From positions 1-36,678 of IMG/VR virus record IMGVR_UViG_3300025536_000186: a stretch of DNA of 36,678 nucleotides. One strand, given 5' to 3'. The DNA comes from a virus. Numbering within the stretch: the stretch's first letter is position 1; every line of letters starts with the position of its first letter. Shown piece after piece: positions 1 to 9,663 of this stretch. A program made the translations under genes and the position numbers. The notes under the pieces were generated by a model, which worked only from the letters and a program-made list of their open reading frames with translations, was not told where the DNA came from and ran no database searches.

Positions 1-2
1 GC

Positions 3-782
3 GCCGAGTTTGACATCGCGCTCGACCGGATCGTCATCGGTAGGCGCCTGCGGCCCCTGAACGAGGCCCGCGCCGCCCTGATCGCCGACAGTATGAAGAA
101 CCGCGGCCAGCTGCAGGCGATCGAGGTGAGCCCGGCCGGCAAGGACCGCTGGCACCTGGTCTTCGGGCTGCATCGTATTGCCGGCGCCAAGATCAACGGC
201 TGGTCGTCGCTGCGGGCGAAGAAATTCGAGGGCGATGCAGATGCCCGCGAGCTGCGTGAGATCGAGGAAAATCTCATGCGCAGCGATCTTAATGCCCTCG
301 ATCGGGCGTTTACTGTCCAGCGCTGGTTTCATCATGCCGGGGTGATCCGCAAGGGCGGAGCGGACGAGAAGAGTCTATCGAATCAAAGCTTTGCCAAGTT
401 GGCAGAGCGGATTCCGGCTGAAGTGGCGGAGAAGGTCGACCTCAGCGAGCGGTCCATCTATCGCGACCTCAAGCTGGCGCGCCTGCTGGCCCCGATCCGC
501 GACAAGATCGCAGGCCACCCGATCGCCGAGAACCACTCTGACCTGATGCGCCTGGCCAAGCTCGATGGCCCGAAGCGCACCAAAGCCCTGGCCGGCCTCG
601 CCGCAGGCAAGCCCTTCAAGGAAGTCGTCGCCGGCCCGAAGGACAGCCCGGCCAACCGCGACAAGGAACTGAGCGCGCTGATCACGATCTGGCGGCGCAC
701 TTCGAAGAAGACAAAGGCGGCCTTCGTGAAGGCGTTCGATGCCGAGCTCGCCGAACTGCTCGAGCGCAAGGCCGCACGATGA
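3..782 (+). CDS. ParB-like N-terminal domain protein, 5' end cut by the window
   Basis: The frame is open from the first bases of the window, so the true start lies upstream. An ATG at 93 exists, but it falls inside the conserved domain and is not a credible start. The visible N-terminal part reads like a ParB/sulfiredoxin-type domain: DRIVIGRRLRPLNEARAALI, then a QLQAIEV strand and the FGLHRIAGAK segment that corresponds to the ParB G-E/H-R-R box. A helix-turn-helix-like part follows (KLAERIPAEVAEKVDLSERSIYRD splits as two helices). ParB-like genes near the left end are known from Mu-like phages of alphaproteobacteria. The role is probably DNA binding or early regulation; partition is not implied, since there is no ParA partner here. 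It overlaps the next gene by 4 bases. Confidence 0.8.
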   Translation, partial: AEFDIALDRIVIGRRLRPLNEARAALIADSMKNRGQLQAIEVSPAGKDRWHLVFGLHRIAGAKINGWSSLRAKKFEGDADARELREIEENLMRSDLNALDRAFTVQRWFHHAGVIRKGGADEKSLSNQSFAKLAERIPAEVAEKVDLSERSIYRDLKLARLLAPIRDKIAGHPIAENHSDLMRLAKLDGPKRTKALAGLAAGKPFKEVVAGPKDSPANRDKELSALITIWRRTSKKTKAAFVKAFDAELAELLERKAAR

Positions 783-1231
783 AAAAGAGCGTGTCACCGG
801 CGCCCCCTCGCGTTCCCCGTGACACGCCGCCGGCGGCGACCTCCCGCGTCGCCGGCACCCTTCTTTTCGATGCGGGCCTGACAAACCGGATCAGGAGCCT
901 GCTTGATCTTTTCGACACCCGGAGCGAGGCCGCACAAGTCGCTGAACGATCGACAGATGCCCTCCAAAATTGGATTGCCGGCAAGTCCGCGCCTACGTTC
1001 GAGGCGATGGCGAAGTTGGCCTTCGCCAAAGGGGTAAGCCTGCAGTGGCTTGCCACGGGCCTCGGCGACATGCTGACCGGCGCCGACGTGCTCCTAACCA
1101 CCTACAGCGAGCTGCCCTTTGATCTGAGGCAGCGCGTTGACCAGGCGGTTGAGCTCGTCGCGCGTGCGCATCGACAGCGGCAATCGGATGTTGAGCGGAT
1201 TCTGGTCCTCACGCTCGAGCCGCCAGCATGA
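779..1231 (+). CDS. HTH (XRE/C1-type) DNA-binding protein
   Basis: This 150-residue protein overlaps the ParB-like gene by ATGA. Residues about 40-95 look like a phage C1-type helix-turn-helix: RIRSLLDLFDTRSEAAQVAE, then a turn and STDALQNWIAGKSAPTFEAM, closing with GVSLQWLATG, which is typical of XRE repressors. The first 30 residues are Pro/Ala/Arg-rich and look disordered. No C-terminal peptidase (LexA-like) domain is visible, so it is not a complete C1 repressor. It is probably a small Ner-like or accessory regulator of the early operon; that role is inferred from fold and position. The gene runs in the same direction as the transposase, unlike Mu c. Confidence 0.7.
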   Translation: MKKSVSPAPPRVPRDTPPAATSRVAGTLLFDAGLTNRIRSLLDLFDTRSEAAQVAERSTDALQNWIAGKSAPTFEAMAKLAFAKGVSLQWLATGLGDMLTGADVLLTTYSELPFDLRQRVDQAVELVARAHRQRQSDVERILVLTLEPPA

Positions 1232-1689
1232 CGCGCCGCATCCGCGATCCCTACACCAAGGACCTGTTGAGCTGGCAGCCGCCCGAGCCGGTGAAGAAGT
1301 TCGAGCCGGACCAAGTCCGCGCTTCCTCGCTCGACGGCCGGATCTGCAAGGCCATCGTCGTAGCGCTTCGGGACTGCGGTCTCGACCGCTGTGACGTCGC
1401 CCAGACAATGACCAACTATCTCGGCGAGCGCGTCAGTACCGCCATGCTGAACGCCTACGCGAGCCCCGGCCGGCAAACCCACACCATCAACGTCGTCCGC
1501 TTCGTCGCCCTGGTGCATGCCACCCGGGATCGCCGCCTCCTCGAGCTGCTCGCCGAGCTCTTCGACTGGAGCGTCGTCGACGAGCGCTACGCCGATGCGA
1601 TCAAGGAAGTCGAGCTCGCCGAGAAGCGCGAGGAAATCGACCGCCAGATCACGCTGACACGCATGCACAGACGTTCGGGGGGACGATGA
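1228..1689 (+). CDS. Small early protein, CII/HTH-like, function unknown
   Basis: The start ATG overlaps the preceding stop (ATGA). The 153-residue product has a central helical region (about 45-115) with a pattern of helix, turn, YASPGR, then RFVALVHATRDRRLLELLAE. This resembles in outline the P2-type CII/CP76 regulators, in which a Cro-like helix bundle is followed by a 'value of age/dose' helix pair. The C-terminal tail is charged and probably coiled (KEVELAEKREEIDRQI). Similar proteins sit between the HTH gene and MuA in related Mu-like phages. I cannot assign a function beyond likely DNA binding. Confidence 0.6.
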   Translation: MTRRIRDPYTKDLLSWQPPEPVKKFEPDQVRASSLDGRICKAIVVALRDCGLDRCDVAQTMTNYLGERVSTAMLNAYASPGRQTHTINVVRFVALVHATRDRRLLELLAELFDWSVVDERYADAIKEVELAEKREEIDRQITLTRMHRRSGGR

Positions 1690-1940
1690 CCACTTTGTAC
1701 GACCGCCCAGCCTTTCGCGTCGGGCACCGATTTCCGATCACGGTCGATGAGATCGGGCGGCTCGAGGTGTTGCGGCGGCAACTCGACAGTGCGGCCCACG
1801 AGCTCGACGTCGCCCTGCGGACACAGAACATAACAGCGCTCCGTCGCGCTCTGCGTTACGCCGCCGCCGCCGCTGCTTTGACCGAGGAATTCAAGGCCAC
1901 CTTCGCCGCGTCGCCGACGGCGGAGGTCGCCACGCGATGA
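1686..1940 (+). CDS. Small early protein of unknown function
   Basis: The 84-residue product is joined to both neighbours by 4-base overlaps (ATGA at each end), which supports it as a real, translationally coupled gene. It starts with a short basic and aromatic stretch (YDRPAFRVGHRFPITVDEI), followed by two Ala/Leu/Arg-rich helices. No catalytic motif, membrane segment or cysteine pair is seen. Its place directly before MuA suggests an accessory early function, but nothing in the sequence specifies which. Confidence 0.6.
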   Translation: MTTLYDRPAFRVGHRFPITVDEIGRLEVLRRQLDSAAHELDVALRTQNITALRRALRYAAAAAALTEEFKATFAASPTAEVATR

Positions 1941-3922
1941 GCCACTGGTTGAGCGCCGCCGATATCGCAGCACTCGGGCTCCCCGGCCTGCCGACGACGG
2001 AGCGCGGCGTGCAGCTGCTGGCCAAGCGCGACGAGTGGACGCCGCCGGCGAAGCAATGGCCGCTGAACGATCAGGGCACCTGGCGCCGCCGCAAGGGTCG
2101 CGGCGGCGGCCTCGAATTTCATTGGTCGATTCTGCCGGCCGAGGCGCGCACCAAGATCGCGATCGGCAAGGTGACCGTCACCACCTTCGATCTGCCGGAA
2201 GCGGGCGAGAGCGAGCAACAGACCGCACCGGCGCTCGAGCGCAGCGAGATCTGGCGCCAGTTCGATGCCCAGCCGCAGCACCGCAAGGACGAGGCCGGCA
2301 AGCGCGTGAAACTGCTCGACGCGATCGAGCGGCTGTCGCTGTCGGGCACGCCGCGCTGCGCCGCCTTCGCGCTGCTGGCGGCCGAATCCGGCGTCGCCGA
2401 GCGCACCCTTCGCCTGTGGCGCGCCAAGGTCGACGGCATCGAGCGGCCCGACTGGCAGGCCTACCTGGTGCCGCGCCACGTCGGCGCGCGCGGGCGCGAG
2501 AAGCCGGTCGACGGCGACGCCTGGGATTTCATCCGGGCCGACTGGCTGCGCGTCGAACAACCGCCCTTCACCAGCTGCTGGCGTCGCCTCGAGCGCGCCG
2601 CCCAGGAGCACGGCTGGGAGCTGCCGTCGGCCAAGACGATCGAGCGCAAGCTGCACGCGCTGCCGCGCACTGTCATCGTCGCCGGCCGCCAGGGCATGGA
2701 GGCGCTGAAGGAGCTCTACCCGGCGCAACAGCGCGACCGTTCGATCTTCCATGCGCTGAACGCGGTCAACGCCGACGGCCACAAGTGGGACGTCTTCGCC
2801 AAATGGCCCGACGGCAGCATCGGCCGCCCGATGATGGTGGCCTTCCAGGATCTCTACTCCGGCAAAATCCTGAGCTGGCGCATCGACCGCTCCGAGCATG
2901 CCGGCCTCGTACGCCTGGCGCTGGGCGACATGGTGTCGACCTTCGGCGTGCCCGATCACTGCTGGCTGGATAACGGCCGCGGTTTCGCCGCCAAGTGGCT
3001 GACCGGCGGCACGCCGACCCGCTACCGCTTCAAGGTCAAGGAAGAGGACGCCGCCGGCGTGCTCACCACGTTGGGCGTGCAGGTTCACTGGACGACGCCG
3101 TACTCGGGGCAGAGCAAGCCGATCGAGCGCGCCTTCCGGGACTTCTGCTCGGACATCGCCAAGGACCCGCGCTTCGCCGGCGCCTACACGGGCAACACGC
3201 CGATGGCGAAGCCGGAGAACTACGGCAACAGCGCGGTGCCGATCGACACCTTCATCGCCGTCGTCTCCGAGGGCATCACGCTGCACAACGCCCGCCAGGG
3301 CAGGCGTGCCGCCGTGGTCAACGGCCGTTCCTTCGACGACGTGTTTCTCGACAGCTACCGCGTCTCGCCGATTCGCCGCGCCTCGGAAGAGCAGCAGCGC
3401 CTGTGGCTGCTCGCGGCCGAGGGCGTGCGCAGCCGGCGTGACGGCTCGATCGAGCTCCTGGGCAACCGCTTCTGGACCGAGCAGTTGGTCGAGTATGCCC
3501 AGCACAGACTGATCGTCCGCTTCGATCCGCAGGCGCTGCACGACCAGGTGCACGCCTACCGGCTCGACGGCTCCTACATCTGCAGCGCTCCCGTCATCGA
3601 GGCCGTGGGCTTCGCCGACGTCGACGCCGCCCGCCGCCATGCCCATGCCCGCGCCGGCTGGATGCGCGCGCAGAAGGACATGCTCGCGGCGGAGCGCGTG
3701 ATCGGCATCGACCAGGTCGCGGCGCTGATGCCGCAGTTCGACGCGCCACCGGTGCCAGAGCCCACCGTCGTCCGGCCGATGTTCGGCGCCGGCAACACGG
3801 CGCTCGCCATGCGGCCCGATGCAGATCGCGATTTGGACGAACCAGAACAACGCGGCCAGGCCGGCATCAGGAATTTCCTGAAGTTGGTGCGGGCGCAGGA
3901 AAACGGCGCCGACGAGGTCTAG
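1937..3922 (+). CDS. A: Mu A-type DDE transposase
   Basis: The 661-residue size matches MuA (about 660). Residues 1-75 form the winged-helix Mu DNA-binding region (WLSAADIAALGLPGLPTTER...KRDEW), followed by the second HTH region (about 110-180), which binds transposon ends. The integrase-like catalytic core holds the DDE triad: Asp280 in NADGHKWD, Asp345 in CWLDNGRGF and Glu397 in SGQSKPIERAF. The spacing of 65 and 52 residues is close to MuA. A C-terminal Mu-transposase beta-barrel and a basic tail that contacts MuB follow. It cuts and joins phage ends to target DNA, both for lysogenic insertion and for replicative transposition. The gene overlaps the previous stop by ATGA. All key residues are intact, so it is probably functional. 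Confidence 0.97.
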   Translation: MSHWLSAADIAALGLPGLPTTERGVQLLAKRDEWTPPAKQWPLNDQGTWRRRKGRGGGLEFHWSILPAEARTKIAIGKVTVTTFDLPEAGESEQQTAPALERSEIWRQFDAQPQHRKDEAGKRVKLLDAIERLSLSGTPRCAAFALLAAESGVAERTLRLWRAKVDGIERPDWQAYLVPRHVGARGREKPVDGDAWDFIRADWLRVEQPPFTSCWRRLERAAQEHGWELPSAKTIERKLHALPRTVIVAGRQGMEALKELYPAQQRDRSIFHALNAVNADGHKWDVFAKWPDGSIGRPMMVAFQDLYSGKILSWRIDRSEHAGLVRLALGDMVSTFGVPDHCWLDNGRGFAAKWLTGGTPTRYRFKVKEEDAAGVLTTLGVQVHWTTPYSGQSKPIERAFRDFCSDIAKDPRFAGAYTGNTPMAKPENYGNSAVPIDTFIAVVSEGITLHNARQGRRAAVVNGRSFDDVFLDSYRVSPIRRASEEQQRLWLLAAEGVRSRRDGSIELLGNRFWTEQLVEYAQHRLIVRFDPQALHDQVHAYRLDGSYICSAPVIEAVGFADVDAARRHAHARAGWMRAQKDMLAAERVIGIDQVAALMPQFDAPPVPEPTVVRPMFGAGNTALAMRPDADRDLDEPEQRGQAGIRNFLKLVRAQENGADEV

Positions 3923-3982
3923 TCGCCGGCGCCGTGACGTCGGGCCTCAAGCCCAAACGCAGCACTGAAGGAGCAAGCATAC

Positions 3983-4951
3983 ATGAACGACGCCCAGAAC
4001 GAAACGACGTTGGACGATGCTGCGGTCGCGCGCATCCGCACCGACGCCAACAGCATCATCGGCGGCGAGAAGATGACGCAGCGGGCCGCGGCCGACGAGG
4101 CCAACATCCCGACCGGCACCTTCAATGCCTTCATCAACGGCAGCTATGCCGGCGACAACGCCCGCGTCGCGGCCGAGGTCGCCAAGTGGCTCGAGGCCCG
4201 GCGCAACCGCAAGAGCATCAAGGCCATCGTGCCGCTCGCGCCGGCCTTCCTGCAGACCAAGACGGCGCAGCAGATCGTCGAGCTGCTGACGTGGGCGCAA
4301 ACCCTCTCTGATTTCGGCGTCATCGTCGGCTCGCCCGGCACCGGCAAGACCTGTGCCCTCGAGTACTACCGTGCGGCCAATCCTGCCGTGTTCGTGGCGA
4401 CCATGGAGCCGGCGAAGTCGAGCGTGCACCATCTGCTGTCCGAGCTCGCCAGCACGGTGAAGGCATCCGAGCGCAGCGCCGTGGCGATCGCCGACGCCGT
4501 CGTGCGCCGCCTCAAGGACCGTCAAGCGCTGCTGATCGTCGATGAAGCCCAGCACCTTCAGAGCGCCGCGATCGATCAGCTGCGCACCGTGCACGACAAG
4601 GCGCGCTGCGGCGTCGTCCTGGTAGGGAACGAGAGCATCGTCTCCAAGCTGGGCGATCCCGAGCGCACGCCGCAGCTCGCCCAGCTCTACAGCCGCATCG
4701 GCCTGCGGCTGACCCTCGCGCGCGCCGCCAACCAGGACGTCGACTCGCTGCTCAAGGCCTGGTCGGTCGAGGACAAGGACGAGCGCCAGTTCATGCGCCT
4801 CGTCGCCTCAAAGCCGGGTGCGCTGCGCGCGCTCACCAAGACGCTGATTGCGGCGACGGCCATGGCCGCCGGCAACAAGGAGCCCCGCACTATCGCGTAC
4901 ATGCGCGACGCCTGGAGCCGTGTCGGCGCCGGCCCGATCGGCAACAGCTGA
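3983..4951 (+). CDS. B: Mu B-type AAA+ ATPase, target DNA activator
   Basis: This 322-residue protein has an N-terminal HTH part (about 30-70, TQRAAADEANIPTGTFNAF), as in MuB, then an AAA+ ATPase. The Walker A motif is GSPGTGKT (116-123) and Walker B is LLIVDEAQ (183-190). The C-terminal helical domain (about 245-310) is where MuB contacts DNA and MuA. MuB coats target DNA in an ATP-dependent way, delivers it to the MuA transpososome, and gives target immunity. It lies 60 bases after the transposase with its own Shine-Dalgarno (GGAG near 3970). ATPase residues appear intact. Confidence 0.95.
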   Translation: MNDAQNETTLDDAAVARIRTDANSIIGGEKMTQRAAADEANIPTGTFNAFINGSYAGDNARVAAEVAKWLEARRNRKSIKAIVPLAPAFLQTKTAQQIVELLTWAQTLSDFGVIVGSPGTGKTCALEYYRAANPAVFVATMEPAKSSVHHLLSELASTVKASERSAVAIADAVVRRLKDRQALLIVDEAQHLQSAAIDQLRTVHDKARCGVVLVGNESIVSKLGDPERTPQLAQLYSRIGLRLTLARAANQDVDSLLKAWSVEDKDERQFMRLVASKPGALRALTKTLIAATAMAAGNKEPRTIAYMRDAWSRVGAGPIGNS

Positions 4952-4961
4952 GGAGGCCGGC

Positions 4962-5282
4962 ATGTCGACCCTGAGGCTGAGCGACCTGATCGACCGCACC
5001 ATCTGGTGGCTGAAGGAGAATGACGGCCCGAAGCCGGCGGAGCTGCGCCGCGCCAGCGAGATCGTGCAGGAAGTGCTGCGCGATCTCGGCATCTTCGCCC
5101 GCGAGATGGAGCGCGCCGAAGCGCATCACTCCGACGATCCGATGCGCCAGTTGCAGGAGCGCGCGATGGCGGCCGAGCGGCTCTACGGCCGCATGATCGA
5201 CCCGCCGCGCGCCGACAACGTGGCGGTGATGCCGGCCAGGGGCCTGCAGGGCGTTGTCGTCCTGGAGTCGTTCCGGTCATGA
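4962..5282 (+). CDS. Small early protein of unknown function
   Basis: The start at 4962 is chosen because AGGAGG (4951-4956) stands 5 bases before it; the frame stays open upstream, but that part lies inside MuB. The 106-residue product is mostly helical and charged (LIDRTIWWLKENDG, then a long helix around RRASEIVQEVLRDLGIFAREMERAEAHH). No known motif is recognised. The next gene starts inside its stop codon (ATGA), so the two are coupled. It sits between MuB and the DnaA-like gene, in the replication part of the operon. Confidence 0.65.
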   Translation: MSTLRLSDLIDRTIWWLKENDGPKPAELRRASEIVQEVLRDLGIFAREMERAEAHHSDDPMRQLQERAMAAERLYGRMIDPPRADNVAVMPARGLQGVVVLESFRS

Positions 5283-5830
5283 GCAGAGCCGCACCGCACG
5301 CCTTCCTCAGCAACTCGCAAGCCGAGCTGATGGCGCACATCGTCGATGCGGTGGCGGACGAGTTTGGCGTGACGGCGGCCGACATTCGCGGCCGTCGTCA
5401 GAACGCCTGCCACAGCTGGGCGCGCCAGGTGACCATGGCGCTGTGCGTGGAATTCACTGGCGAGACGAGCGCCGACGTCGCCGCCGCATTCAATCTCGAT
5501 CCCACGACCGTGCTGTATGCGACGCGCAAAGTCGCACGCCTCGAGGGCGAGACGCCGGCGGTCGCTTCCAAGCTCGCCGACGTCCGGCGTGCCATCGAGG
5601 CGCTCGTGCCGGGCATCACCCAGCGCCGCTCCGAGCGCGCCGTCGATGGCCACCGGCGAGCCATCCAGGAGAACGACACGGACCAAGCCTCGGCTGAGCG
5701 CCAACTCGACGCGCTCCTGCGCGTGCTCCGGCGGAACCTGATCGCCGCCGTACGCGCCAACCCCGGCGCCGTCCTGGCCGGCCTCATGCGCGCCGCCGAC
5801 GAAATCAACGGCAAGGAGAACCAGTCGTGA
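5279..5830 (+). CDS. Stand-alone DnaA domain IV-like DNA-binding protein
   Basis: In this 183-residue protein, residues about 20-85 match DnaA domain IV in order: IVDAVADEFGVTAADIRGRR, a basic loop, RQVTMALCVEFTGET, then DVAAAFNLDPTTVLYATRKV, the DnaA signature helix-turn-helix. Host DnaA has D-H-T-T-V at the recognition helix; here it is D-P-T-T-V, and the basic-loop arginine region is altered, so base preference is probably not a standard DnaA box. There is no AAA+ domain: this is only the DNA-binding module plus a C-terminal helical tail (about 100-183). It could mark a phage site, compete with host DnaA, or act as a regulator. The family assignment is from sequence; the role is inferred. 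Confidence 0.75.
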   Translation: MSRAAPHAFLSNSQAELMAHIVDAVADEFGVTAADIRGRRQNACHSWARQVTMALCVEFTGETSADVAAAFNLDPTTVLYATRKVARLEGETPAVASKLADVRRAIEALVPGITQRRSERAVDGHRRAIQENDTDQASAERQLDALLRVLRRNLIAAVRANPGAVLAGLMRAADEINGKENQS

Positions 5831-6021
5831 GCACCACCGCCATCCTGGTCCGCAACGACGAAGACGTCAGCGTCCCCACGATCGAGCTCCGGCACTCGAA
5901 GTTCGGCGCCGAGCGCGATTGGTACGGCCTCCGGTCCCACGAGCGCGCGCAGCCACTGTCCGACGTCGGATGCCGCGCACTCGCCTTCCACATCGCCACC
6001 ACCACCCTCAAGAGCAGGTAG
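5827..6021 (+). CDS. Small early protein of unknown function
   Basis: The GTG start overlaps the previous stop (GTGA). The 64-residue product has two short beta-like stretches (TAILVRNDEDVSVPTIELRHS) and a C-terminal helix. No motif is recognised. Its tight packing between the DnaA-like gene and gam is the main support. The start could be slightly different, but the frame fills the gap exactly. Confidence 0.5.
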   Translation: MSTTAILVRNDEDVSVPTIELRHSKFGAERDWYGLRSHERAQPLSDVGCRALAFHIATTTLKSR

Positions 6022-6024
6022 CCC

Positions 6025-6567
6025 ATGACCCAAACCGACATCGAGATGGATCTCATCGAAACTGGAGCGAAGGCCTTGGCGGATGCCCGCCTGCGGCTCG
6101 CCAAGGAGATCCTGCGCGCCGAAGCGAAGCTCCTTGCCGTGCGCGAGGATTTCGAGCGGCCGCTGAAGGAGGCCGCGACGGCGGTGCTGACTCAGCAGGC
6201 CGAACTGCTTTCCCTGGTCGACCGCGCGCCGGCGCTCTTCAAGCGCCCGCAGAGCATCGAGTTTCATGGTGTGCGTGTGGGCTGGCGCAAGGGCAAGGGC
6301 CGCCTCGAGCTGCCGGAGACCGAAACCCTCATCAAGCGAATCGTCGATCAGCTCACGCAGTCGCAGCGAAAGACGGTGCTGAAGGTCAAGACGACTGTGT
6401 TGAAGGGTGGCCTCGCGAAGCTGTCGGGCGAGATCCTGAAGAAGCTCGGCATCAACGTCACCGCTGCCGGCAGTGAGGCCTTCGTCAGTTTCCCGAAGTC
6501 TGATGCTGAGAAGCACGTCGACTGGTGGCTGAAGCCGGTCGCCGCGTCGGCCGACGAGGAGGAGTGA
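6025..6567 (+). CDS. gam: Mu Gam-type host-nuclease inhibitor
   Basis: This 180-residue protein is close to the size of Mu Gam (174). The N-terminal half is a long coiled helix (ADARLRLAKEILRAEAKLLAVRE). A beta segment follows with IEFHGVRVGWRKGKGRLELP (about 77-96), the characteristic Gam strand where the family has a 'gkvgfR' pattern. The C-terminal part, with ILKKLGINVTAAGSEAFV and a WW-containing end, also fits. Gam dimers bind double-strand DNA ends like Ku and protect linear phage DNA from host exonucleases. The position after B in the early operon matches Mu. Confidence 0.9.
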   Translation: MTQTDIEMDLIETGAKALADARLRLAKEILRAEAKLLAVREDFERPLKEAATAVLTQQAELLSLVDRAPALFKRPQSIEFHGVRVGWRKGKGRLELPETETLIKRIVDQLTQSQRKTVLKVKTTVLKGGLAKLSGEILKKLGINVTAAGSEAFVSFPKSDAEKHVDWWLKPVAASADEEE

Positions 6568-6568
6568 C

Positions 6569-7327
6569 ATGACCGACAAGCTCCTTCCCGCCGGACACTA
6601 TGTGATCGCCCTCGCCGCTGTCGGCGGGGCATTCGCCGACGGCGGCTGGGTTTCGCTCCGCCTTGCGCACGCGATGGTTCCTGAAGTCATCCAGCGGGCG
6701 GCAGTGAGTGCAATCGAGACGTTCCTGCCCAAGGACCTGGAGATGCTTCCCGCCGGCGCGTGGTGGCACGTCACCATCACCTACCAGTCGGCCTGGGATT
6801 CGGGCTGCATGCTGGGGGCCCAGCTGCAACTCCCTGACGCGCTGCAGAGCGAACAGTTCCCAGACGCATTGCGCGAATTCATGCCGCGCGCCACCGCGTC
6901 GCATCCTTCGCCATGGCGAATCGTTTCGGCGTGGCACCATCACATGCGCTCGAGGCCGAGCGGCCCGCGCTGCTCAACTGAGGAGGCACAGATGGAACGC
7001 GCCACTTTATCGAATATGTGCCTGCCGCCGCCGGTCGTCGAAGCCATCCGTGACCTGTGCATTGTGATCGCCGAGAACGTCTCCATCCGCGACGGCTACT
7101 TCCGCGCCGGAGCGAGCCGCCTGGCCGCGCGCATCGACGCTGCCATCGCGTCAGGCGCCGACATCAACTTGTCGGGCGACGAGATCGAGCTCGCTGTCGA
7201 CATGGCGGAGGCCATCGTCAAGGCGATCGTTGGCGGCAAGCGGCTGGTCAGCTCTGAAGTCCTGACCCGCATCTGCGTGCGTGTGGTGAATCCGATCACC
7301 GACGCCCTAGGCTATGTCGAGTCATGA
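6569..7327 (+). CDS. Unknown early ORF, probably two genes joined by a frameshift near 6900
   Basis: One frame stays open for 252 codons, starting one base after gam's stop. The first ~110 residues look like a real protein (HYVIALAAVGGAF...WWHVTITYQSAWDSG). From about 6905 this frame becomes Arg/Pro/His/Cys-rich and unlike coding sequence. The frame one base earlier then reads ASFAMANRFGV and ALEAERPALLN and stops at 6979-6981, directly before a perfect Shine-Dalgarno and an ATG at 6992. The simplest reading is an ancestral gene from 6569 to 6981 that suffered a one-base indel near 6900 and now runs into the next gene. A genuine fusion cannot be excluded. Neither part has a recognised function. 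Confidence 0.55.
   Translation: MTDKLLPAGHYVIALAAVGGAFADGGWVSLRLAHAMVPEVIQRAAVSAIETFLPKDLEMLPAGAWWHVTITYQSAWDSGCMLGAQLQLPDALQSEQFPDALREFMPRATASHPSPWRIVSAWHHHMRSRPSGPRCSTEEAQMERATLSNMCLPPPVVEAIRDLCIVIAENVSIRDGYFRAGASRLAARIDAAIASGADINLSGDEIELAVDMAEAIVKAIVGGKRLVSSEVLTRICVRVVNPITDALGYVES
6992..7327 (+). CDS. Probable separate small early protein, unknown function
   Basis: This is the second half of the 252-codon frame, taken from its own ATG because AGGAGG (6981-6986) stands 5 bases before it. The 111-residue product has alternating helices (PPPVVEAIRDLCIVIAENV, then LAARIDAAIASGADINLSG, then ELAVDMAEAIVKAIVGG). It contains no catalytic or metal-binding pattern. Its stop overlaps the next start by ATGA, as is usual in this operon. 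Its role is unknown. Confidence 0.55.
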   Translation: MERATLSNMCLPPPVVEAIRDLCIVIAENVSIRDGYFRAGASRLAARIDAAIASGADINLSGDEIELAVDMAEAIVKAIVGGKRLVSSEVLTRICVRVVNPITDALGYVES

Positions 7328-7674
7328 GCACCGTCGAAGCCCCCGCGGCCGACGCCGCGCCGCCGCCGATCGGGCCCGACCCTTTCGAGACCTTCCCGCT
7401 GCTTGGGTTGCTGTTCGCCTTCGACACGACCTGGCGCGCCTATCGCATCCGCCATCCGCGCAACGAGGACCTGGCCGCACTGCACGAACTCTTTCGGCCG
7501 CTGTCGGCCGAGATCCATCGGCTCGGCATGGTCGACAAGTTCACCGGCCGCCTTTCGTTCAAGGGCGATGCCCGCGAAGTCTTCGATCGCTGCCTCGAGG
7601 TGGCCCGCGGCGCCGGCCTGCAATGGCCGGACATCGTCGAAGCGGTGAACAAGGCCGGGGAGGCCGGCAAATGA
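7324..7674 (+). CDS. Small early protein of unknown function
   Basis: The 116-residue product is linked by ATGA overlaps on both sides. The N-terminus is Ala/Pro-rich and likely disordered. Residues about 25-110 are helical (LLGLLFAFDTTWRAYRIRHP, DLAALHELFRPLSAEIHRLG, AREVFDRCLEVARGAGLQW). The hydrophobic part is too polar overall to be a membrane span. No family is recognised. It precedes gemA directly. Confidence 0.6.
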   Translation: MSTVEAPAADAAPPPIGPDPFETFPLLGLLFAFDTTWRAYRIRHPRNEDLAALHELFRPLSAEIHRLGMVDKFTGRLSFKGDAREVFDRCLEVARGAGLQWPDIVEAVNKAGEAGK

Positions 7675-8399
7675 GCCGGCGTCCCTATCGTAGGCCGCCG
7701 CTCGCACCGATGCCCATGGCGGCGGACGGCGCGCGCAAGAACCTGCTGGCGAAAATCCATATCCAGCAGAAGGAGCTCGCGCTTTCCGACGAGAGCTATC
7801 GCGATGTGCTCTGCCGCATCACCGGCCACCGCTCGGCGGCCCTGTGCGACGACCAGCAGCTCTACGCGGTGCTGAAGGAATTCGATCGGCTCGGCGCCGG
7901 CAAGAAGGCCAGCGCCCGGCCGATCGCCGACTCGCCCATGGCGCGCCGCTGCCGTGCGCTGTGGCTCAACCTCTTCAACCTGGACGAAATCGAGATTGGC
8001 TCCGAGCTCGCGCTTGCCGCCTTCGTCCAGCGACAGACCACGCGCGAGGACATGCGCTTCTGCAACGCCGAGCAGCTCTCCGACGTGATCGAGGCGCTGA
8101 AGGACTGGGGCAAGCGCGTCGGGCTGACCGGCCTGGCGGCCGGCGCCGACAAGCGCGCGCCACGCCGCGCCCTGGTGCGGCTGCAATGGCACCGGCTGCA
8201 CGCAGCGAACTGGGCCAAGGTGGAAGGCGACTCGGGCCTGATGGGCTTCGCCCGGGCATGGCGCGTTGTGCCGCGCGACATGCCGCTCGAGGAGATGGAG
8301 CCGGTCGATCTCGACAACCTGGCAATGAAGCTGGGCGCTCTGGTGCGCAGGCAGCGCCTCGGCCGGCGCCACCAGGCAAACACCGGCGAGGCCGGCTAG
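7671..8399 (+). CDS. gemA: GemA-like (Mu gp16) regulatory protein
   Basis: The start at 7671 overlaps the previous stop by ATGA; the open frame upstream is not used. The 242-residue product carries the GemA/DUF1018 signature near the N-terminus: NLLAKIHIQQKELALSDESY followed by RDVLCRITGHRSAALCDDQQL and VLKEFDRLG. Downstream, a helical region contains two typical 'LW' and 'LNLFNLDEIE' segments and a VIEALKDWGKRVG helix. In Mu, gemA modulates host gene expression and DNA topology-related functions early in the lytic cycle. Its place just before the Mor-like gene is the same as in Mu (16, then 17). Confidence 0.88.
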   Translation: MSRRPYRRPPLAPMPMAADGARKNLLAKIHIQQKELALSDESYRDVLCRITGHRSAALCDDQQLYAVLKEFDRLGAGKKASARPIADSPMARRCRALWLNLFNLDEIEIGSELALAAFVQRQTTREDMRFCNAEQLSDVIEALKDWGKRVGLTGLAAGADKRAPRRALVRLQWHRLHAANWAKVEGDSGLMGFARAWRVVPRDMPLEEMEPVDLDNLAMKLGALVRRQRLGRRHQANTGEAG

Positions 8400-8404
8400 A
8401 CCAG

Positions 8405-8845
8405 ATGGCGACGCCGCGCGTCTTCCGCGATCCCCGCATCGACCGGCTGCCCGGGCAGCTGAAGCCGGTGGCGGAGATCTGCGGCTACGACGGCGTCATG
8501 CGCTTGCTCGAGCACTATGCCGGCCAGGAGGTCTACATCCCGGCGATCGCGCGCAGCCACCGCACCAAGATCGCCAAGTTGTGCGGGCCCGGTGTCGCCC
8601 TCGCTGTCGCCAAAGCCCTGGGCGGGACGCGCAGCGTGCGTATCCCGCTGGCCGAGGGCCTGCGCACCGAGGCCAAGCACCGGGCGATCAACGCCGATCG
8701 GCGGAAGGCCAATGCCGTCGCGCGGGAGCTAGGCATGCACGTCGACTCCGTGCATCGTATCCGCGCCGGCCGGGGCGCCAAGCATCGCGTGCCCAGGGAG
8801 AGCCGGCAGCCGGGGCTGTTCGACGCGCTTTCGAAGCGGTCGTGA
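8405..8845 (+). CDS. mor: Mor/C-family transcription activator
   Basis: The start ATG at 8405 is 5 bases after the gemA stop. At 146 residues it is similar in size to Mu Mor (129) and C (140). The C-terminal half follows the Mor/C plan: a beta strand with R-S-V-R-I-P, a linking helix (LRTEAKHRAINADRRK), then the helix-turn-helix NAVARELGMHVDSVHRIRAG. The N-terminal half (about 1-75) would form the dimerisation helices. In Mu, Mor turns on the middle promoter, and C then turns on the late promoters, by binding inverted repeats next to a weak -35. Only one such protein is present here, so it may do both jobs. It is the best candidate to bind the repeated 16-bp palindrome at 9673 and 18265. Confidence 0.75.
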   Translation: MATPRVFRDPRIDRLPGQLKPVAEICGYDGVMRLLEHYAGQEVYIPAIARSHRTKIAKLCGPGVALAVAKALGGTRSVRIPLAEGLRTEAKHRAINADRRKANAVARELGMHVDSVHRIRAGRGAKHRVPRESRQPGLFDALSKRS

Positions 8846-8863
8846 CGGTGTAGGATCGATTCC

Positions 8864-9109
8864 ATGAATTCGAAACTCACCGCCTGGAGAAGCATCGCGA
8901 ACGACCTGCCGGACTGGTCGGATACCGGGCCTGCGGAGCTTCGCTACGGCGACGGGCGGGTGATCTCAGGTAGGCTTCACATCACCGACTTCATCTCCGG
9001 TGACCCCGAGATCCCGTTGTTTGCCTTCACTTCGAGTGCCGGTGAAGACCTCGATATCTTCACGGCCAAGGAGTGGCGGCTGGTGAGAATCGATCAGAGG
9101 ACGAAATGA
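8864..9109 (+). CDS. Small protein of unknown function
   Basis: The 81-residue product has alternating short strands (AELRYGDGRVISGRLHITDF, then IPLFAFTSSAGEDLDIFTAKEW RLV), suggesting a small beta-barrel. No family is recognised. It follows the Mor-like gene after 18 bases, and its stop overlaps the next start (ATGA). Confidence 0.5.
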   Translation: MNSKLTAWRSIANDLPDWSDTGPAELRYGDGRVISGRLHITDFISGDPEIPLFAFTSSAGEDLDIFTAKEWRLVRIDQRTK

Positions 9110-9663
9110 CCGCCATCCGTCTCATTCTGGCCGACAGCGTGGGCACTAGCGTCGACCCAGTCGATCGCAAGGACCGCTGGTACAGACGCAACCTCGCGGC
9201 GGCCATCAAGGAGGCGGCAACGGTGGAGTCGCTGGGCGACACATTCCAGCGGCTGGCGGTTCATCTCCATCCGGCCGACGGTGATCCGATCGACGTCGAG
9301 TTCTGCTTCGAGGATGCACCCGTCGATCCGCTGAAGCTCGACGCGCTCATGCACCGGGCTGGCACGATCGTCGACGGCCTTCGACATTCGGCAGCGCTGC
9401 TCGGCCGCGAGAAGTCCGCCGTCATCGTGCCGATCGTGAGCTTCGCGGCGCGGACCTCCAGCTTGACCCAGGACGAGCAGGAGCGCGCCGAGCAACGCCT
9501 GTTGTGGGCCGCCAGCTGGAAAAGCCTGGGTGAGCATTACCTCGGCCTCTGCTTCGGCGATGGCATGGCCATCTTCCAGTTCGGCGACTATCGCGACGAT
9601 GTGAACGGGCGGCGGGTGCGCGAGCTCGCGTCGACCACGGCTATGGCCGAGGCCTCCGCCTAG
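9106..9663 (+). CDS. Unknown protein at the end of the early operon
   Basis: The start at 9106 is chosen from the ATGA overlap; an upstream start at 9073 would lie inside the previous gene. The 185-residue product is mixed alpha/beta, with an acidic central region and a Trp-rich stretch (LLWAASWKSLGEHYLGLCF). No motif is recognised. It ends just before the first late promoter and so marks the end of the early/middle block. Confidence 0.6.
   Translation: MTAIRLILADSVGTSVDPVDRKDRWYRRNLAAAIKEAATVESLGDTFQRLAVHLHPADGDPIDVEFCFEDAPVDPLKLDALMHRAGTIVDGLRHSAALLGREKSAVIVPIVSFAARTSSLTQDEQERAEQRLLWAASWKSLGEHYLGLCFGDGMAIFQFGDYRDDVNGRRVRELASTTAMAEASA

Follow-up and report, generated by a model that had tools for sequence, protein, structure and literature searches.

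A free-standing DnaA domain IV protein with an altered recognition helix in the transposition operon of a Mu-like phage

We herein show that the gene at 5279-5830 of a Mu-like phage encodes a free-standing DnaA domain IV fold, followed by a helical tail that is conserved in its kin. The gene lies between those of MuB and a Gam-like protein in the early transposition operon of IMG/VR record IMGVR_UViG_3300025536_000186, whose whole 36,678 bases, hereafter the window, were identified by profile searches as a Mu-like phage of bacteria. Judging from its recognition helix, the protein probably recognises a DNA site different from that of DnaA.

The genes from 93 to 7674 run on a single strand, with 4-base overlaps or short gaps between them. 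By profile, the genes of the window include those for a ParB-like protein, a repressor-like HTH protein, MuA, MuB, a Gam-like protein, GemA and a Mor-like protein, and MuA, MuB, Gam, GemA and Mor stand in the Mu order, which bears out the transposition operon that the sequence-only reading had proposed. The features discussed here are:

93..782, + strand: ParB-like protein, which opens the coupled operon (phrog_3264, E=1.8e-23)
1937..3922, + strand: MuA-type transposase (PF02914, E=1.7e-52; phrog_310, E=3.5e-150)
3983..4951, + strand: MuB-type AAA+ target-capture ATPase (PF09077, E=1.3e-17; phrog_296, E=5.8e-75)
4962..5282, + strand: small partner ORF, 106 aa, its stop overlapping the domain IV start (ATGA); homologues in the kind-II phages defined below
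5279..5830, + strand: free-standing DnaA domain IV protein, 183 aa, with domain IV at about 14-109 and a helical C-terminal extension at about 108-183 (PF08299; AlphaFold2; Foldseek and VIA-align)
5492..5533, + strand: recognition-helix region N-L-D-P-T-T-V-L-Y-A-T-R-K-V, E. coli 431-444 (alignment columns mapped on gammaproteobacterial DnaA)
5827..6021, + strand: small ORF, 64 aa, whose GTG start is coupled to the domain IV stop (GTGA overlap; GC by codon position)
6025..6567, + strand: Mu Gam-like end-protection protein (phrog_491, E=3.8e-8; PF07352 under its cut-off)

The Gam-like call is based on profiles in the window, and in other loci the label is used without a profile assignment. The ParB-like gene is chained to the MuA gene by four 4-base overlaps; the same order, with a ParB-like gene upstream of MuA, is also annotated in POA1180, RhkS_P1 and Aussie. 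MuB of the window is 96% identical to that of the relative G001 (also L012), and the compared early-operon genes on both sides of it are about 35-73% identical, a pattern that points to a recent swap involving just MuB or else a short stretch.

The domain IV ORF is intact, from the ATG at 5279 to the TGA ending at 5830. It overlaps both neighbours by 4 bases (ATGA at its start, GTGA at its stop), and its GC content by codon position (0.73/0.50/0.86) matches that of the adjacent genes. The Bac_DnaA_C profile (PF08299) scores 57.7 bits over residues 19-85 (cut-off 31.5; E=1.2e-15), and a scan of the whole record with this profile gave the same ORF as its single match. When solved structures were searched by sequence, DnaA domain IV ranked first (3pvp, E=7.9e-8; 1j1v, E=6.5e-7). 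In an AlphaFold2 model built on a 21-row alignment (mean pLDDT 89.2, pTM 0.69), the helices of residues 14-109 form domain IV and three further helices follow up to residue 182. With this model, Foldseek retrieved 3pvp_B (E=2.5e-5), and VIA-align retrieved 3pvp_A (Z 18.3; 96 residues at 1.3 A) as well as 1j1v_A (Z 17.6), whereas the first row that was not DnaA had a Z of only 6.3. The protein thus shares its fold with the domain IV of E. coli (1j1v) and M. tuberculosis (3pvp) DnaA, at 1.3 A over 93-96 residues. Both profile and structure confirm the free-standing domain IV that had been read from the letters. The accompanying statement that only the DNA-binding module of DnaA is kept stands in so far as domains I-III are missing, but it leaves out the conserved tail, which the model adds as extra C-terminal helices.

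This tail is conserved among the kind-II kin; the C-terminal part modelled alone reached pLDDT 78.8 and pTM 0.47, and Foldseek against solved structures gave no match for it up to E=10, which does not imply a new fold. The protein is not a full initiator: its 183 residues match neither AAA nor DnaA_N, and the DnaA_N profile has no match in the whole record. Single-sequence searches returned no close relatives of it from viral contigs, and only full-length Pseudomonas DnaA from genome contigs. A kind-II profile matched 358 of 398 Pseudomonadota genomes; of the matches listed, nearly all lie in DnaA-length frames and not one extends to the tail end, so that this 398-genome sample showed no kind-II copy on a chromosome.

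The residues R399, P423, R432, D433, H434 and T435 are described as contacting the DnaA box, base contacts among them (PMC7561715, PMC5043019), and the contact residues of the recognition helix are also given in PMC9638019. In our alignment, the window protein reads Q, A, L, D, P and T at these six positions, where the R399 column may slip by one residue (the loop is G-R-R-Q-N), and so does not retain the complete set of a DnaA-box binder. The replacement of D-H-T-T-V by D-P-T-T-V had been noted from the letters and is as described; however, the change is not H434P alone, since R432 is lost to L, P423 is replaced by A and R399 appears to be Q. Given that T435, T436 and the backbone-contacting pair R442/K443 are retained while the base-reading residues are altered, the protein is expected to bind DNA, but not at the DnaA box.

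Relatives of the phage were collected without reference to domain IV, seven loci by MuB and 15 by MuA, and PF08299 scored above its cut-off in nine of these 22 records; G011 and G012, both counted, encode one and the same protein. In eight of the nine, domain IV is encoded on the MuB strand and downstream of MuB, either directly after it (L013, L017) or behind one or two small ORFs (L012, L019, L020, L022, L032, L033); the ninth, L023, has a domain IV protein identical to that of L022. The proteins possess two kinds of reading head. Kind I keeps R399, R432, D433 and H434, as seen in all five distinct proteins found via MuA or MuB (L013, L017, L022, L032 and L033). Kind II comprises the window, L012, L020 and L019; its four members carry L or V at 432, P at 434 (R in L019) and A, S or T at 423, and three of the four carry Q at 399. 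In a tree of domain IV (70 rows, 72 columns, built without the unlinked viral rows of even locus number, except L062), the four kind-II proteins form one clade (100/97).

A second search, starting from kind-I proteins, yielded 268 relatives, of which 80 were compared, making 85 loci together with five further ones. MuB is present in 23 of the 85, five of which (L058-L060, L063 and L070) are records already in the first set; in all 23, MuB precedes the domain IV gene and shares its strand, and a GemA homologue follows in 20 of them. The examined stretch of the remaining 62 loci contains neither MuA nor MuB. Free-standing domain IV proteins with a DHTT head are widespread in viral contigs (L063-L142), but this wider set was fetched with the motif DHTT[IV]MH or LS[IP][EA][YV]IQQ, so that its heads are no independent evidence and only the five proteins found through MuA or MuB count. 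In the phage contig L062 (5863-6327), we also observed a D-P-T-T head combined with R at 432 in a domain IV protein, MuA and MuB being absent from the stretch examined.

The domain IV gene of the window is coupled to a small ORF that shows no above-chance Pfam or PHROG match. Homologues of this partner were found in four of four kind-II phages, each with a 4-base overlap onto the domain IV start, and in none of the kind-I loci among the collected loci whose ORFs were searched. In comparison with G001, the partner is 43% identical, domain IV 48%, MuA 73% and MuB 96%; over G001 and G009 together the figures are 43-47% for the partner, 48% for domain IV and 73-75% for MuA. Both genes are among the faster-diverging ones of the operon, and they form a two-gene module, reminiscent of gafY-gafZ.

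Mu replication goes through PriA and is not known to need DnaA, and what the protein does in the phage had been left between a decoy, a regulator and a helper for delivering the transpososome to origins of the host. We tentatively favour the second, namely that the window protein could well regulate the early/transposition operon by sequence-specific DNA binding, no longer reading DnaA boxes and acting in a GafY-like manner. By analogy, this is the role with the best precedent of the three, and a tested one: GafA and GafY are described as DnaA-domain-IV-like transcription activators (PMC9638019, PMC9632790, PMC11150451), and GafY, a homologue of DnaA domain IV, as acting in transcription and not at oriC (PMC9632790, PMC11150451), after it had earlier been taken as the replication factor HdaB (PMC9632790). 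Similar to the window protein, GafY of Caulobacter and Hyphomicrobiales is a free-standing domain IV, and GafA of Rhodobacter has one at its N-terminus; both belong to prophage-derived systems and are coupled to a partner gene. The GafY-like proteins compared, 12 of 14 PRK06030 matches (L160, a near-copy of L159, and L171, a full-length DnaA of 467 aa, were dropped), have likewise replaced H434, by R in 12 of 12 as opposed to P in the window; the kind-II member L019 shares this R434.

Mechanistically, the domain IV protein would bind double-stranded DNA specifically, at a sequence distinct from the DnaA box, and once bound would regulate the expression of early/transposition genes as an activator or auto-regulator. 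The partner ORF, host IHF and RNA polymerase would perhaps take part, and the tail might contact the partner, itself or the polymerase. A regulator with its own sites would explain why the head has changed, why divergence is fast and why the gene is paired with a partner.

However, the regulatory role is carried over by analogy, as the 12 chromosomal GafY-like proteins form a clade of their own (100/98), apart from kind II (100/97), in a tree of only 72 columns, and the window protein falls outside the GafY clade. Moreover, the partner of GafY is GafZ (DUF6456, PF20057), found beside the GafY-like genes of L161 and L163, whereas a GafZ-like profile run over the window and the kind-II and kind-I loci supplied gave no believable match, only an antisense one of 14.5 bits, which speaks against a regulator. 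The tail of the window protein is also longer than that of GafY, and its setting is a Mu transposition operon. In Mu-type phages Ner, the repressor and Mor already control early and middle genes, and a Mor-type gene is present in the window, which weakens the regulatory reading further. A search of DnaA boxes and simple repeats revealed no binding site for the domain IV protein; the repeats in 1-9200 are weak, coding-type similarities that include no candidate operator, and the window holds one match to the DnaA box (TTATCCACA) with up to one mismatch against 3.07 expected, hence no box cluster.

The place beside MuB fits a helper in DNA transactions equally well. The domain IV protein might work with MuB and MuA, binding chosen DNA and making contacts via its tail, in target capture, in remodelling of the strand-transfer complex or in the hand-over to the host replisome; we consider such a role a real, though less probable, alternative. 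Its position next to MuB is conserved in both kinds, several Mu-linked kind-I proteins extend into a tail over the same columns of the alignment, and two relatives, G002 and G006, also encode DnaA domain I in the same region. The tails of the two kinds, however, are only weakly similar (hhalign E=0.008, probability 4.9%), and domain I was found in only two of 26 records and in none of the 18 Mu-linked records of the second set, nor is it present in the window. Furthermore, 13 of the 22 relatives found through MuA or MuB, some of them fragments, have no domain IV match, suggesting that domain IV is probably not essential to the Mu-type mode of replication. For the narrower proposal, a helper that guides transpososomes to origins of the host, the loss of box-reading residues is a weakness; the general helper, adjoining MuB and with domain I in two relatives, is still plausible.

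In those two relatives, domain I (DnaA_N, PF11638) is located on a separate ORF before GemA, besides the domain IV ORF after MuB:

L013 5989-6645 (G002:C1:6436-6609): DnaA domain I ORF, 37.8 bits against a cut-off of 24.6
L017 4864-5628 (G006:C1:5419-5580): DnaA domain I ORF, 31.0 bits against the same cut-off

Two DnaA modules thus flank an AAA+ protein in G002 and G006. One might speculate, with little confidence, that some Mu-like phages run a distributed initiator, in which the DnaA DNA-binding module, together with a helicase-recruiting domain I in these two relatives, would act as separate proteins around MuB as the AAA+ engine; the phage would thereby steer where transposition complexes load the replisome, and the choice of site would have been re-tuned in the window lineage.

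A host-origin decoy or blocker would occupy the DnaA boxes of oriC without an AAA+ domain, stopping host initiation or freeing replication proteins for the phage. For the window protein we consider this improbable, since it has lost its box-reading residues (R432, H434 and P423, with R399 read as Q), and the reassignment of GafY/HdaB from replication to transcription (PMC9632790) points the same way. For kind I, whose members at the same place keep R399, R432, D433 and H434, a decoy is possible and a better guess than for the window. Across 253,627 bases of Mu-linked kind-I loci, exact DnaA boxes are absent (1.2 expected), so any box bound by kind I would more likely lie in the host. At up to one mismatch, 33 boxes were counted in these loci against 45.2 expected, eight against 13.5 in kind II and 54 against 60.7 in Mu-like controls without domain IV, a shortage that is small and measured against a crude first-order background, and on which we place no weight; unlinked phages with domain IV carry 11 exact boxes against 5.0 expected. 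DnaA boxes are near-universal, being common to nearly all bacteria. A decoy would have no reason to drop its contacts to so widely shared a site, whereas a regulator following its own sites would, and this favours the regulator. Finally, a moron or remnant, that is, a captured regulator fragment carried in the operon with no role in the phage cycle, would fit the rapid divergence and the patchy presence (nine of 22), but is most improbable for a gene that is intact, coupled and found at the same place with the same partner in four of four kind-II phages, with the fold and 29 invariant positions retained at 36-48% identity.

Phages and prophage-derived systems are already known to carry free-standing domain IV proteins, namely GafY/HdaB, those of the NCBIfam PRK06030 models and the phage 'DnaA C-terminal' proteins of uncultured Caudovirales (BFVD). 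PRK06030 also matches the window protein, though weakly (E=4.7e-5, far under the cut-off). The 'DnaA C-terminal' proteins, of about 92-196 aa, differ from the window protein in that they are mostly not linked to Mu genes (MuB in 23 of 85 loci) and nearly all have the DHTT head, partly through the search motif. What looks new is the recurrent placement in a Mu operon, together with the DPTT head and the coupling to a partner ORF; a literature search by title and abstract, covering mostly papers outside subscription journals, found none on a DnaA module in Mu-like phages. If confirmed, a host-derived DNA-binding module would join the parts list of Mu-type replication and regulation, its head re-tuned in the window lineage. 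The DnaA-like, GafY-like and DPTT heads would offer a natural series for studying how domain IV specificity evolves, and it becomes testable whether Mu-type phages use a domain IV protein on themselves, on the host origin or on the transpososome.

None of 14 named transposable phages reaches the PF08299 cut-off; two Sinorhizobium phages give matches of 16-17 bits. In the Mu-like Sinorhizobium phage Aussie, AUSSIE_8 (L045, 3368-3721) resembles domain IV but has diverged strongly (17.4 bits, under the cut-off); it is encoded just after Ner and before both a ParB-like gene and MuA. Inspected by eye, its surroundings of the ARQVA motif look like those of GafY; StopSmel 2606-2773 and possibly L043 3369-3722 are comparable cases.
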